64,000 nt of DNA from assembly GCF_017052655.1 (NCBI RefSeq), contig NZ_JAFIDC010000001.1:496001-560000 (forward strand), in the 5' to 3' direction. Origin of the DNA: Acholeplasma equirhinis (GTDB lineage Bacteria > Bacillota_I > Bacilli_A > Acholeplasmatales > Acholeplasmataceae). Below, in pieces: positions 9,179-58,607 of this stretch. The notes beneath the pieces were generated by a model. The model was given only the letters and a program-made list of their open reading frames with translations, searched no databases and had not been told where the DNA came from. The position numbers and the translations under genes were made by a program. Each line of letters begins with the position of its first letter. Within the stretch, counting starts at the first letter, position 1.

Positions 9179-10687
9179 TTAAGCCTGTGGATTCTTAGTT
9201 ACACGGAAGATGAATGTAACTTGTGTTACGTTACCCCAAGTATCTTCAACTTGTAACATAATTGTATAGTCAGCTTCAACTCTAGTGTCTAGGATTGCGT
9301 TTGGACCAGCAGGAACGAATACTTTAGCAGTAACGTCACCGTCACGATCATCAAATGCAGAATATAGAGGGAAGTCATCTAAATCGAATGGTTGACCCCA
9401 TTGTACTAAGATAATATTTTCTTCACCTAATAATGGGAATGAAATTTCTGGACCTTCAGTGTCCATATTTACATCAATTTGAGCTTCATTTACACCATCA
9501 TTGAATGATAATACATATTGTTTAGTATTGTCTAATTGAACACCATCAGCTAAAACAACAACGAAATCAGAAATTGATGAGTTACGTAAAGCGAAGTCAA
9601 TACGTTCAATAGCAAGTTCAGTTTGAGTACCTTTTAAAGTAACCTTGAACCATGATTTCATAGTTGCTAACGCTTGATCTTGTGCTTGAGCAGTTTCAGC
9701 GACAGCATATAAGTTATTAACAGGAGCAGAAGTCTTAACAATAATTTGTGTAGGACGAACTGCATAAGTTCCTGAAGGTTGACCTGTATTAGAATCTAAT
9801 GAGAATGGGTTCAGTCTGAATGTGAATGCTTCTGCAGCATAATCTTCAAAAGCATCAAATCCGTAATAAACGTTATCACCATCTGTGTAAGGAGCACCTT
9901 TAGATACAACCCAAGCAGCAGCAGTAGTGCCAACTGCATGTGTACCTTCACCATAAGCTAATTGGATCTTAACATCACCAGTTCTCTTATTAGCATCTCC
10001 ACCTTCATAGATGAGTAAACCACCATCTTTAACAGCACCGCCATCACCTGGTTCGATAGATAACATAGCAGCTTTAACTACTTGTCCACCTTCTGTTTCA
10101 CCAGCTGTAGAGAATACTTTATTAGGTACTGACCAACCAGCATCACCGATAGACCAACCACCCCAGTTATGAACACCAAGGTTTTCATCATAGTTACCTG
10201 TTGGATCAAAGTAAACTAATAACATATTGTGCATGTCAGGATCAGCGGCAAACCATCTTGGGTTTTCAGCAGTTGATTTACCTGGATCATCGTTTCTGCC
10301 TTGGAAGACATAAACGTGAGTAGTTTTATTTGCTTTGATTACAGTTTGATTAATTAATATGTCTGAAGTAAATTTATTACTCCAATCTGTGCTACCATCA
10401 GCATAATTAACAGCAATGAATGGAATTGTAGCAGTTGAATCTTCTGCAACAACTGGAATATCAGAATATTCGAAGTAAGCTCCGAAATCATCTAAACCAT
10501 CATATGTTTGTTTTTCTGAAATAACAGCCCAAGTGAAACCACCTAACCCGGTGTATTCATCATTCCATTTTTTGAAATGGATGACAAGATTACCAGTTTC
10601 AGCATCCGCAGCAAAAAGTTGTGGAAGTGAAACTAATGTCCCGAGTAAAGCAGCCATAGCGACTAAAGATAAGACAATCTTTTTCAT
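9179..10687 (-). CDS. secreted CBM41-like alpha-glucan-binding protein, no catalytic domain
   Basis: First gene of the maltodextrin operon. The 502-residue product has a Sec signal peptide (cleavage likely after PQLFA near residue 26) and no lipobox. Residues about 32-135 show the CBM41/pullulanase-associated pattern (GNLVIHFKKWNDEY, then GGFTWA). A second copy-like segment starts near 155 (MLLVYFDP...WGGWSIGDAGW). The C-terminus (about 410-500) resembles an Ig-like/surface repeat (DRDGDVTAKVFV). I see no glycosidase motifs. It probably binds starch or glycogen at the surface and feeds MalE; that role is inference from domains and operon position. The start is well set by AGGAGGG. Confidence 0.75.
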   Translation of the reverse strand: MKKIVLSLVAMAALLGTLVSLPQLFAADAETGNLVIHFKKWNDEYTGLGGFTWAVISEKQTYDGLDDFGAYFEYSDIPVVAEDSTATIPFIAVNYADGSTDWSNKFTSDILINQTVIKANKTTHVYVFQGRNDDPGKSTAENPRWFAADPDMHNMLLVYFDPTGNYDENLGVHNWGGWSIGDAGWSVPNKVFSTAGETEGGQVVKAAMLSIEPGDGGAVKDGGLLIYEGGDANKRTGDVKIQLAYGEGTHAVGTTAAAWVVSKGAPYTDGDNVYYGFDAFEDYAAEAFTFRLNPFSLDSNTGQPSGTYAVRPTQIIVKTSAPVNNLYAVAETAQAQDQALATMKSWFKVTLKGTQTELAIERIDFALRNSSISDFVVVLADGVQLDNTKQYVLSFNDGVNEAQIDVNMDTEGPEISFPLLGEENIILVQWGQPFDLDDFPLYSAFDDRDGDVTAKVFVPAGPNAILDTRVEADYTIMLQVEDTWGNVTQVTFIFRVTKNPQA

Positions 10688-10783: not shown

Positions 10784-10816
10784 ATGCAAACGGTTTCTTA
10801 TTGTAATCGCTAACAT
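10784..10816 (+). promoter_or_regulatory. two further tandem cre-like operators upstream of pullulanase
   Basis: ATGCAAACGGTTTCTT (10784-10799) and TTGTAATCGCTAACAT (10801-10816) each match WTGNNARCGNWWWCAW with one core mismatch. With the site at 10757 this makes three operators in 60 bases between the two divergent transcription units. No good -35/-10 pair for pullulanase could be fixed. Confidence 0.6.
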
Positions 10817-14265: not shown

Positions 14266-14294
14266 TTGCACAATGTAAGCGCATACTATATACT
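14266..14294 (+). promoter_or_regulatory. promoter with cre-like operator in the spacer
   Basis: TTGCAC (14266-14271), 17 bases, TATACT (14289-14294). The spacer contains ATGTAAGCGCATACTA (14273-14288), a one-mismatch match to WTGNNARCGNWWWCAW, so the repressor and polymerase would compete. A weaker relative (GAAATCGTTTC, 14240-14250) lies just upstream. This promoter drives the 36-codon ORF and the secreted protein behind it. Confidence 0.7.
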
Positions 14295-14337
14295 TTATAT
14301 AAACAATAATCACTTATTTTTAAGGGGGAGAGATACA

Positions 14338-14448
14338 GTGAAAAAATATTATGAGGAATCTATCCTCGAAGTTGTCGATTTTTCTGTTGAAGAAAGTATC
14401 GCTTCATCAGGTGCGGTTTTGTATGAAGAAGTGTGGAGTCAAAGCTAA
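14338..14448 (+). CDS. 36-residue peptide, translationally coupled to a secreted protein
   Basis: GTG start at 14338 with AGGGGGAG at 14323-14330 (7-base spacing). The product has 36 residues, strongly acidic (nine E, one D), starting MKKYYEESILEVVDFS and containing SIASSGAVLYEE. It has no transmembrane segment and no cysteine. Its TAA shares one base with the ATG of the next gene (TAATG). The N-terminal MKKxYExxxLEVV pattern resembles short leader-like peptides that I associate with clostridial genomes, some suspected to be modified-peptide precursors; this is a recollection of pattern, not a proven homology. A plain translational-coupling role is the main alternative. Confidence 0.65.
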   Translation: MKKYYEESILEVVDFSVEESIASSGAVLYEEVWSQS

Positions 14449-15839
14449 TGAGAAAAGTTAGTATTTTATCTATGCTTTTGATTTGGGCATTTGCATTAGG
14501 TCTATTATTAGTTCCTAGTGTATTTGCAGATGATCCAGTTTTACCTTCTGGAGAAATTCAACTTATTGTTTATACTGATGGGTCTGGTCCAGCAGTAGAA
14601 ACCGAATTTGAAGGTCCACTTGGACAATTAGTAGAAATTGATGTTGAGAGTTTAGAAATTAAAGATAAAGAGTTCTCTTTCTTCATTCATAACGGACAAA
14701 AAATAACTAATCCTAACACTCAATTCTTAGTTTCTAAATCCACTAAAGTGGTGGTTGTGTTTAAAGGTGAAGATGAAATTGTAGCTGCATTCGTCGATAC
14801 GAATGGTCAAGTTTTACACATGCAATATGGTGTTGATGAAATTGATTTAGAGTATGCTGAAGATTCACCATATCCATCAAAACCAGGGTTTCAGTTTAGT
14901 CATTGGAGTGTAAATACAAATGTAACAACTGATACGATTGTAAAACCTGTCTATATTGCTTCAAACATTGATGATATTGTGGTAACTGTTGATGGTGATC
15001 CTATGTTATATCCGTATAACTCGATTGTCACTATAGAATCTGAAGTATCTGAATTTACACATTGGGAAGATGAAAATGGTGTAATTGTTTCCTATGATAG
15101 TATTTATCAATTCACTGCATTAGAAAACATTTCACTTGTTTCAAAAACCGATGGTGAAGAGAAACCAATGGTTTATCTAAGAGATGTTACCGGAATAGTA
15201 GATGGAGCAGAATCATTCTTAGGGCAAGTTTACCTACCAACAGGTTATAGCGTTGTTGAGTGGGGATTCATAGGATCGAATACTGCAGAAAATGGTCAAT
15301 ATTTACCAGAATTAGATGATCTAGATGTTGAAGTTAAAACATTAACAGCTATGTTATCATCAACTGGTGAATTTTTAACTCGTATTATTGGTGAAGGTTA
15401 TGCATATACTAGAGCTTACGCGATTATTAAAGATGAATTAGGTAATTTAGAGTACTTATATAGTGACGTAAGAAATAAGATAAAAGTAATTTTTGAATTG
15501 AACTTTGGTTGGTCAACACCAGTAAATGAAATTGAAGGTGCGTATGTTAAAGGATCATTTAATGGTTGGAGTACGAGTCATAAGATGAATCATGTGATAA
15601 AAGAAGGCGTGAATACAGCATTTGAACTTACAGTTGAATTTGTCTTTATGAAACAAATGCCAACTATAGAATTTAAGTTCTATCATGTGATTCCAGGTGG
15701 ATGGGGTCCTGGACCTTCTGATTTTTCAGGATATGATGCAAGATGGTATGGAGATGGAGATGCAAATTTAACTAAATCAGTAAGTCCAATTAATGGAGCT
15801 ATACAAATTGCATTACCTAGTCCTTATTGGGTAGATTAA
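14448..15839 (+). CDS. secreted InlB-repeat-like protein with C-terminal starch-binding-like module
   Basis: 463 residues; ATG 14448 shares a base with the stop of the upstream 36-codon ORF, with GTGGAG upstream. It has a Sec signal peptide (cleavage near VFAD, about 26) and no lipobox or sorting signal. Residues about 35-330 are shared in order with the protein at 56554: FLVSKSTK, EIVAAFVDTNGQ, an InlB B-repeat-like PSKPGFQFSHW segment, YPYNS, SFLGQ, and RAYAIIKD. The C-terminal part (about 345-463) has VKGSFNGWS, typical of CBM48/SusE-like starch-binding folds. With its operator-controlled promoter inside the glucan island it is probably a surface alpha-glucan-binding protein. Confidence 0.75.
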   Translation: MRKVSILSMLLIWAFALGLLLVPSVFADDPVLPSGEIQLIVYTDGSGPAVETEFEGPLGQLVEIDVESLEIKDKEFSFFIHNGQKITNPNTQFLVSKSTKVVVVFKGEDEIVAAFVDTNGQVLHMQYGVDEIDLEYAEDSPYPSKPGFQFSHWSVNTNVTTDTIVKPVYIASNIDDIVVTVDGDPMLYPYNSIVTIESEVSEFTHWEDENGVIVSYDSIYQFTALENISLVSKTDGEEKPMVYLRDVTGIVDGAESFLGQVYLPTGYSVVEWGFIGSNTAENGQYLPELDDLDVEVKTLTAMLSSTGEFLTRIIGEGYAYTRAYAIIKDELGNLEYLYSDVRNKIKVIFELNFGWSTPVNEIEGAYVKGSFNGWSTSHKMNHVIKEGVNTAFELTVEFVFMKQMPTIEFKFYHVIPGGWGPGPSDFSGYDARWYGDGDANLTKSVSPINGAIQIALPSPYWVD

Positions 15840-56553: not shown

Positions 56554-58476
56554 TTAATACAATGTTTGAAGATAAGCATTGATTGAAACTTCAAGATCTG
56601 ACCAAGGAACAATATTTCTCATATTTTTGGCAATTGTTGATACACTTGTACCAGCAATTCTTCCTTGAACTGCTATTAAATAAGCATTTTGAATCTTAAT
56701 CACTGGCACATCACAAGCTTCATAAATCCATAAAAGTAATTCTGGACTTAATAATTTTGAATAAACTCTTGTTTTTGCACTTTCCGTATATGAAAGTGTT
56801 CCTGCTGCAATGCTAGGATACATCCAAGAATCAAAAAAGTGCCATTTTTGATTTGGTGAATGTTGTGATTTATCAACAAGTATTCCTAAACTTTTTGCAA
56901 GTGCGATATAACCACCACTTGCTTGTTGGTGATCTTCGATAAACATATCTGATATTGGATAATGTTCATTTTTTGTTTGTAAAAATACTGCAATTTCATA
57001 CATTGAAATGAATCCGTCATTAATAATAACTTGACCATCTGATGGATTTGTTGGATTTTCAGGATTTTCAACAACTGGAGGTTCTTTTTGAACTATAGAT
57101 GTCGTTTTAAAGAATCTAATATTATCTAGACCACCATCCCAGTTTGTAGCAGTAAGTGGGTCTTTGTTTACGAATGTAAGTGTAATTTCTTTTTCACCAT
57201 TTGTTTGTATTTCAAAGTTTCTGACTAAACTAGTACCAGTAATTGTCGTATCTCCAATGACCCAAGCAGTTTTACTTTGTGTTCCTAGTTTTAAATCAAC
57301 TAAAACTTTATCAAAACCAGTCACATCAATGGTTACTACTTTAGGATCTGGATAGTTACTATTAATTCTCACATAGAATGTATTGTTATCAATTTTCCCT
57401 GCTGCTGTTGTTGAAACATTACCAAAACCAGTAACTCTACCAAAAGTTTTTTCTTGAAAATAACCGGTACCCGTACTATATGATTCGAAGTTTTCAACAT
57501 CAATTAATCCTAAAACATTATCGGAATAAATAAATTCTAAATTGTTATCGTTTTTAACAATCAAATATGCTCTAACTGTAAGATATTTATCGATTGGTAG
57601 TGATCTTAAAAATTCATTTGTATGTGCAAACGCTGTTGATGGTATTTTAGTACCATTCTCAATTGTTAATGGTGTAACAAAAGTTTCCGTTACAACTAAT
57701 CCAGCTTCAACGAATTCATAACCTTCAGTTAACATATATTGTCCCAGATAGGATTTGTGACCACCTCTAAGTGTTAACTCATTTGATAAAACTATGTTAG
57801 GGGTTGTTACTAGCCCTTCAACAGATACTAACTTTCTTGGATATATTACTGAAAATTCATAAACTGGTCCAACTGAAACAGGTATTCCATATTCTTCCCA
57901 ATGGAAACCATCTTCTGCATAAATTGTTTGAACTGAATTATATACATAATATTCTGATTGGCCATCAATGATAATTTCAATATCATCATATTCCATTTCA
58001 TATTGTGCAACAAATACTGTATCAGAAGTTATCGGATAATCTGGTAAATTAAAACCGGTAAATTTAAATCCGGGTTTTGTTGGTACTGCACCATCATAAG
58101 TTGGTAGCAAAGAAAATTCTCCATACAGTGCGTATAAGAATTTCCCATTTGAATCAACAAATGCTGCAACTACCTGCTCTTCTTCTTTTAATATCATAGT
58201 AATAGCTGTTGAATGACTTACTAAGAAATTTCTGTTTATTTCTTGACTGTATTCTCCATTAAATATGTGGAATGCATAGCCAGTTATAGCAAATGACATA
58301 TTGACATGTTCTCCATAATAACCTGTTAGGTTTAATTCAAATGGTTCATTATCTGGAGTTACAACATTAATCTCTATTTCAGTTTGTTCATTTACGGCAA
58401 ATAACATTGGAGTCATATAGATTCCAATAAATAAAACACTTATAAAACTAAGTGTGGTTAATACGATCTTTTTCAT
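56554..58476 (-). CDS. large secreted InlB-repeat-like protein with jelly-roll and unknown C-terminal domain
   Basis: 640 residues with a Sec signal peptide (cleavage near MLFAVNE, about 27). Residues about 35-330 match the protein at 14448 in order: FLVSHSTAI, QVVAAFVDSNGK, PTKPGFKFTGF, YVYNS, SYLGQ, RAYLIVKN. Residues about 335-475 look like a carbohydrate-binding jelly roll (GNVSTTAAGKIDNNTFYVR ... WDGGLDNIRFF). A linker rich in P and N follows (about 480-500), then about 135 residues I do not recognise. It is translationally coupled to a 43-residue ORF. It is probably a surface ligand-binding protein; no enzyme motif is seen. Confidence 0.75.
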   Translation of the reverse strand: MKKIVLTTLSFISVLFIGIYMTPMLFAVNEQTEIEINVVTPDNEPFELNLTGYYGEHVNMSFAITGYAFHIFNGEYSQEINRNFLVSHSTAITMILKEEEQVVAAFVDSNGKFLYALYGEFSLLPTYDGAVPTKPGFKFTGFNLPDYPITSDTVFVAQYEMEYDDIEIIIDGQSEYYVYNSVQTIYAEDGFHWEEYGIPVSVGPVYEFSVIYPRKLVSVEGLVTTPNIVLSNELTLRGGHKSYLGQYMLTEGYEFVEAGLVVTETFVTPLTIENGTKIPSTAFAHTNEFLRSLPIDKYLTVRAYLIVKNDNNLEFIYSDNVLGLIDVENFESYSTGTGYFQEKTFGRVTGFGNVSTTAAGKIDNNTFYVRINSNYPDPKVVTIDVTGFDKVLVDLKLGTQSKTAWVIGDTTITGTSLVRNFEIQTNGEKEITLTFVNKDPLTATNWDGGLDNIRFFKTTSIVQKEPPVVENPENPTNPSDGQVIINDGFISMYEIAVFLQTKNEHYPISDMFIEDHQQASGGYIALAKSLGILVDKSQHSPNQKWHFFDSWMYPSIAAGTLSYTESAKTRVYSKLLSPELLLWIYEACDVPVIKIQNAYLIAVQGRIAGTSVSTIAKNMRNIVPWSDLEVSINAYLQTLY

Positions 58477-58607
58477 CAGTATTGCACCTCACTTTGATAC
58501 TGGATACTTTGAGGTAATTTAGTTGTTCCATATAAACTTGGTTTCATAAGTTTAAACATGATTGCTTCAGGTGCCATCATTGTGAGTTTTATTATCCCTT
58601 TTATCAT
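58476..58607 (-). CDS. 43-residue peptide coupled to the secreted protein
   Basis: ATG 58607 behind GGAG; 43 residues, basic and methionine-rich (MIKGIIKLTMMAPEAIMFKL), with KPSLYGTTKLPQSIQ after it. Its TGA shares one base with the ATG of the downstream gene (TGATG), just as at 14448. It has no cysteine or clear membrane span; the first half could form an amphipathic helix. I do not recognise it. The position, not the sequence, is shared with the 36-residue ORF. Confidence 0.6.
   Translation of the reverse strand: MIKGIIKLTMMAPEAIMFKLMKPSLYGTTKLPQSIQYQSEVQY

Follow-up and report, generated by a model that had tools for sequence, protein, structure and literature searches.

PqqD-type RREs of known RiPPs bind a YxxPx(L/I) motif in the leader of the precursor (PMC12710340, PMC10368454), and RREs that bind W/Y/LxxP/L/I are found in the pathways for lasso peptides, PQQ and sactipeptides (PMC12710340). 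The nearest described systems to the locus analysed here are the clusters for phosphorylated or phosphoglycosylated lasso peptides (paeninodin, pseudomycoidin and Bradymonas bsf), which contain this leader motif, a discrete RRE, an HPr-like kinase, a nucleotidyltransferase and an ABC gene (PMC8498205, PMC10368454). The authors of RRE-Finder noted that, of the almost 8,000 proteins for which their discrete lasso RRE model is the best match, only about 4,000 co-occur with a lasso protease and cyclase (PMC7470986). Short ORFs placed before genes for exported proteins or export factors are likewise known from the arrest-peptide regulators SecM, MifM and VemP.

Here we analyse a 36-codon ORF and the secreted-protein gene that it overlaps, both located in a 64,000-nucleotide stretch of the Acholeplasma equirhinis genome (“the window” hereafter). 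We consider it probable that this ORF encodes an RRE-dependent, RiPP-like precursor, recognised in trans by an RRE, phosphorylated by a kinase, cut by a protease, and translationally coupled to a surface protein.

Organization of the peptide locus

Broadly, the layout proposed in the earlier note is borne out by direct reading of the sequence: a GTG-started ORF with a strong ribosome site runs through TAATG onto the gene of a 463-residue secreted protein, the stop codon TAA (14446-14448) sharing a single base with the ATG at 14448 (Table 1). The locus lies in a starch-use region, flanked by a pullulanase-like gene and an alpha-amylase gene, and the C-terminal region of the secreted protein weakly resembles a glycogen/starch-binding module (AMPK1_CBM, E 0.059, below cut-off). 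A structure model of this protein, made from four sequences, was too poor for use (pLDDT 57). Neither Pfam nor NCBIfam gave a match for the peptide itself, and no known RNA element was found upstream of its gene.

The operator-controlled promoter that had also been proposed is weak. The sigma-70-like match at 14267-14294 scores 9/12 in a region that holds 11 such matches (11.6 expected), and the cre-like site is near chance level, with 7 such sites in the window vs. 2.7 expected, a number reached in 5 of 100 shuffles. Cre-like sites stand before the pullulanase-like gene (10802-10815) as well as before the peptide gene, which hints that the two genes may be under shared sugar control; the number of such sites in the window is only weakly above chance.

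Table 1. Coordinates of the features of the two peptide/secreted-protein loci of the window.
Feature	Position	Strand	Description
Cre-like operator sequence	14274..14287	+	TGTAAGCGCATACT; one mismatch; weak, near chance
Shine-Dalgarno-like sequence of the peptide gene	14323..14332	+	AGGGGGAGAG, ribosome site AAGGGGGAG; direct reading of the sequence
Predicted precursor-peptide gene	14338..14448	+	GTG start, 36 codons, VKKYYEESILEVVDFSVEESIASSGAVLYEEVWSQS; family profile match E 9.6e-14
Predicted leader block	14350..14409	+	YEESILEVVDFSVEESIASS; ungapped 20-residue block common to 23 peptides
Predicted core peptide	14410..14445	+	GAVLYEEVWSQS; residues following the predicted I-A-x-S cut
Ribosome site of the secreted-protein gene	14434..14438	+	TGGAG, within the Trp-Ser codons of the peptide
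Secreted protein, 463 aa	14448..15839	+	N-terminal signal peptide; N-terminal ~340 residues family-specific
Paralogous secreted protein, 640 aa	56554..58476	-	35% identity over 347 residues
Short ORF overlapping the start of the paralogue	58476..58607	-	Layout as at 14338; orphan peptide, outside the family count

A conserved peptide precedes the secreted proteins

A homologous peptide is found directly upstream of 23 of 26 assessable Acholeplasmatales homologues of the secreted protein (the window copy and 22 others), the denominator comprising loci whose upstream region could be judged (L014, L026 and L029 were left out); the three paralogues without a family peptide are L002, L018 and L023. 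The secreted-protein family has five copies in the genome of the window, three of which, besides that of the window, have a homologous peptide directly upstream, and peptide-bearing homologues also occur elsewhere in the order, in further genera and families. A fifth, divergent peptide of the same genome, MENLIKRCYETPSIEITEFDEKVHANSTSVPVDSWFAD, lies 15 bases before a secreted protein outside the relatives from the P0001 search, and profile searches of this genome found no further copies.

The 23 peptides share an ungapped block of 20 residues (consensus Y..P.IEV.EF....SIAxS) and have no hydrophobic segment. The tail behind the block is 9-21 residues long and varies in both length and sequence. 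A short peptide with a conserved N-terminal part and a variable C-terminal part is what is expected of an RRE-dependent RiPP precursor. The window peptide is the sole case among the 23 in which Ser replaces the Pro of YxxP. Evolutionarily, the 20-codon block has a pooled pN/pS of 0.43 in its own frame, vs. 0.82 and 1.67 when read in the others, and between L017 and L020 differences fall at 12 of 12.5 synonymous sites and 4 of 47.5 nonsynonymous sites. The overlapping short ORF that the earlier note expected at the starts of homologues is thus present in 23 of 26 cases and under purifying selection, and the peptide sequence is conserved as well as the coupling. At one locus (L104 around 9356-9409, genome G005), a stop truncates the peptide after MEKKYYEEPQLEVIEFK and no large secreted ORF follows it, but the kinase, RRE and protease genes are still present, an apparent decay of the peptide/secreted-protein pair.

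The same design had been described at 58476-58607, in front of the paralogous secreted protein. Its layout indeed recurs, with a ribosome site and an overlap of the form TGATG, but the peptide is an unrelated orphan, so that neither a shared peptide nor a shared peptide function follows: the family profile fails to pick it up, a survey of 61 genomes gave no convincing homologue, and we rejected it as a family member on these grounds.

In nearly all Acholeplasmatales pairs, the gap from peptide stop to secreted start is between -20 and +15 bases, and the gene that follows encodes a protein with a signal-peptide-like start (vs. 85 of 262 longer neighbourhood ORFs, judged by the same crude rule). 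The ribosome site of the secreted gene sits in the terminal Trp-Gly/Ser codons of the peptide, with GGGG or GGAG inside the peptide in most members, so the terminal EEIWG could not be kept as a purely peptide motif, its Trp-Gly part being the ribosome site of the next gene. Peptides that end earlier lack the terminal Trp and have this site after their stop, which indicates that peptide sequence and coupling are conserved for separable reasons.

An RRE, a kinase and a protease accompany the peptide

The YxxPx(I/L) start of the conserved block resembles RRE-bound leaders, and a search for PqqD (PF05402) was therefore made as a prediction. PF05402 matches above cut-off occur in 18 of 18 peptide-bearing genomes vs. 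7 of 43 others among 61 relatives (P 4e-10), and of 295 genomes drawn from the whole phylum, 25 have the peptide and 30 the kinase introduced below, with 24 having both (P 1e-28), these P values ignoring shared ancestry and thus overstating significance, with peptide genomes spanning 17 genera. In the sole peptide genome without the kinase (G297), the peptide is almost the same as in G076, and a misbinned contig is a possible explanation.

In most peptide-bearing relatives only a few kb separate the PqqD gene from a peptide, and it is part of a conserved cassette of HprK/PEPCK-fold kinase, RRE and S24/S26 protease of ~140 residues, which in several genera also includes an NTP_transf_5 nucleotidyltransferase and an ABC exporter; the exporter, of the peptide-export type, adjoins the kinase in genera other than that of the window, where the cassette has neither adjacent exporter nor nucleotidyltransferase. 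In the genome of the window, the PqqD-type gene is located at C1:1112.8 kb, about 600 kb from the window peptide, and stands beside one of five precursors. The other four pairs being distant from the RRE gene, its action in trans is assumed.

Several other loci of this genome deserve mention. An NTP_transf_5 (PF14907) gene lies at C1:97059-97706 (L213), apart from the kinase/RRE/protease locus. A second cassette-like locus (L090 9827-15739, C1:605.8-611.7 kb) has a divergent peptide, a different secreted protein (GASIRT type with List_Bact repeats), a kinase fused to an S24-type protease, and a GHL10 glycosyl hydrolase. At the maturation locus itself (L088 5746-6753, C1 ~1.106 Mb), an ORF encoding Endonuclease I (PF04231) continues in the -1 frame past the stop of the big secreted ORF. 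ORFs of this type have neither a start codon at their beginning nor a signal peptide, the junction at the stop lies in a Pro-rich linker, and the -1 relation holds in 8 of 8 cases (L088, L091, L094, L096, L097, L098, L099 and L100) with no common slippery site, which makes a programmed frameshift possible.

In profile comparisons the RRE matches TfuB1 and TbiB1, both of them lasso RREs, and it also hits NCBIfam lasso PqqD models below their cut-offs. A Foldseek search with a structure model of the kinase (pLDDT 95) found PEPCK and HprK (E about 1e-6 to 1e-4), and the sequence has an intact P-loop with invariant residues and an NDDKP motif; by fold and P-loop, the protein is thus predicted to be an HprK/PEPCK-fold kinase. 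The protease shows Ser (SMxP), His and Asp (GD) boxes of the archaeal/ER signal peptidase type, invariant in 19 of 19 sequences, and its profile matches SPase I and SEC11, in line with a predicted member of the S26 signal-peptidase catalytic family; no membrane segment was noted. Signal peptidases favour small residues at positions -3 and -1. Counting from the end of I-A-x-S, position -3 is A, S or T and position -1 is S or G in 23 of 23 peptides, which is consistent with a cut at this point.

Related cassettes in gut Clostridia

Scanning named genomes for the kinase yielded 80 loci, mainly from gut Clostridia, together with Peloplasma aerotolerans and one Acholeplasmataceae genome. Among these, at least 60 have the RRE, at least 49 the protease, at least 26 the ABC gene, at least 24 the nucleotidyltransferase and at least 24 the peptide, all lower bounds given that contig ends interrupt many loci. 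The typical Clostridial peptide reads ..Y..P..EVV.FE.EDVIT.SG, and some are followed by small lipoprotein-like genes; at none of the Clostridial loci was the peptide seen tightly coupled to a large surface protein. At four Clostridial loci (L157, L181, L184 and L196), related peptides are followed by radical SAM genes, with the kinase/RRE/protease set near most of them. The Clostridial loci support a precursor role for the peptide.

Proposed pathway and alternative explanations

Taken together, these observations suggest a pathway in which the N-terminal block (14350..14409 in the window) would serve as leader and carry the cut site, the PqqD-type RRE recognising it in trans and handing the peptide on to both the kinase and the signal-peptidase-like protease. 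The HprK/PEPCK-fold kinase, a neighbour of the RRE, presumably phosphorylates the precursor, and the soluble Ser-His-Asp protease probably removes the leader by cutting after I-A-x-S, which would free a short core (GAVLYEEVWSQS here) that is probably exported in genera with the ABC gene. Through translational coupling, each peptide would be made in step with its own surface protein, a single RRE serving the five peptide/surface-protein pairs of the genome; the simplest guess is a joint action of the core and the surface protein made alongside it.

The earlier note had offered a precursor or leader peptide, a secretion aid and a translational regulator as ways in which peptide and surface protein might form a functional pair, and the first of these is now favoured. 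If the short ORF were only a translational device, i.e., a coupled leader cistron with a functionless peptide, by which translation of the secreted protein is set or sensed, the tight coupling and the ribosome site carried by the terminal Trp-Gly codons would be readily understood. However, selection at the amino-acid level acts on the N-terminal block, distant from the coupling site, the strict co-occurrence with the RRE and kinase, and the presence of a cassette that also includes the protease, would be left unexplained, and the homologous Clostridial peptides adjoin the cassette without a coupled large surface protein, so we regard such a device as unlikely. Arrest peptides as in SecM, MifM and VemP differ further, the family peptides having no signal or membrane segment, no export signal and no conserved C-terminal stall sequence, with conservation in the N-terminal block instead and a linked processing cassette. 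A small acidic secretion aid or chaperone, unprocessed and cytoplasmic, would fit the signal peptides of nearly all coupled partners and the lack of an exporter beside the cassette in the genus of the window, but would account neither for the RRE, kinase and protease genes nor for the I-A-x-S motif, and sits poorly with the exporter adjoining the kinase in other genera; it seems to us quite improbable.

The likeness to phosphorylated lasso clusters extends to the YxxPx(L/I) leader, an Ile near the leader end, the discrete PqqD-type RRE, an HPr-like kinase, a nucleotidyltransferase and an ABC exporter (PMC8498205, PMC10368454), all of which a lasso precursor with its remaining enzymes unlinked would explain. 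Yet the lasso leader protease B2 (transglutaminase-like, PF13471) is above cut-off in none of the 61 relatives, and the Asn-synthase-like cyclase (PF00733) gave one marginal partial match in the genome of the window (E 1.2e-4, model positions 17-79 of 354). On these searches we rejected a lasso assignment, and most cores, inspected by eye, showed no suitably placed ring-closing acidic residue; we consider an unlinked lasso pathway very improbable. Where lasso clusters have their protease and cyclase, the present system has a soluble signal-peptidase-like protease, and its precursors are scattered and coupled to surface-protein genes. With PQQ and the StsA/StsC sactipeptide pathways (PMC12710340), the peptides share the motif by which the leader is recognised. 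The StsA model weakly picks up one member of the family (E 0.0033, below cut-off), and radical SAM genes adjoin related Clostridial peptides. In contrast to these pathways, no radical SAM gene was seen in the examined Acholeplasmatales cassette neighbourhoods, in which kinase and signal-peptidase-like protease are the constant partners. The likeness seen to the SynChlorMet cassette is a kinase match to ScmC (NCBIfam, E 1.1e-11, below cut-off).

Our preferred reading of a processed precursor is best placed as a variant within the known RRE-dependent RiPPs. The earlier view that no system of this form had been described needs revising for the leader and RRE logic, which is familiar from RiPPs, and holds for the rest: neither a cassette of kinase, RRE and signal-peptidase-like protease nor precursors coupled to surface-protein genes are described in the literature searched (preprints and most subscription journals were outside its scope), so that cassette composition and surface-protein coupling are apparently new. 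It is possible, if somewhat short of an even bet, that they define a distinct RiPP-like class (HprK-fold kinase, PqqD-type RRE and soluble signal-peptidase-like protease) in which a processed, perhaps phosphorylated, peptide and one co-translated surface protein form a unit in wall-less bacteria, gut Clostridia having related peptides and cassettes. The cassette could be one group among the RRE-Finder proteins found without lasso protease and cyclase. An unannotated 36-codon ORF becomes a predicted substrate with named partners, namely an RRE, a kinase and a signal-peptidase-like protease, and a RiPP-like precursor would here be tied to a surface protein rather than housed in a product gene cluster. 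Since related peptides and the cassette are present in many gut Clostridia, the relevance of this system may extend well beyond Acholeplasma.
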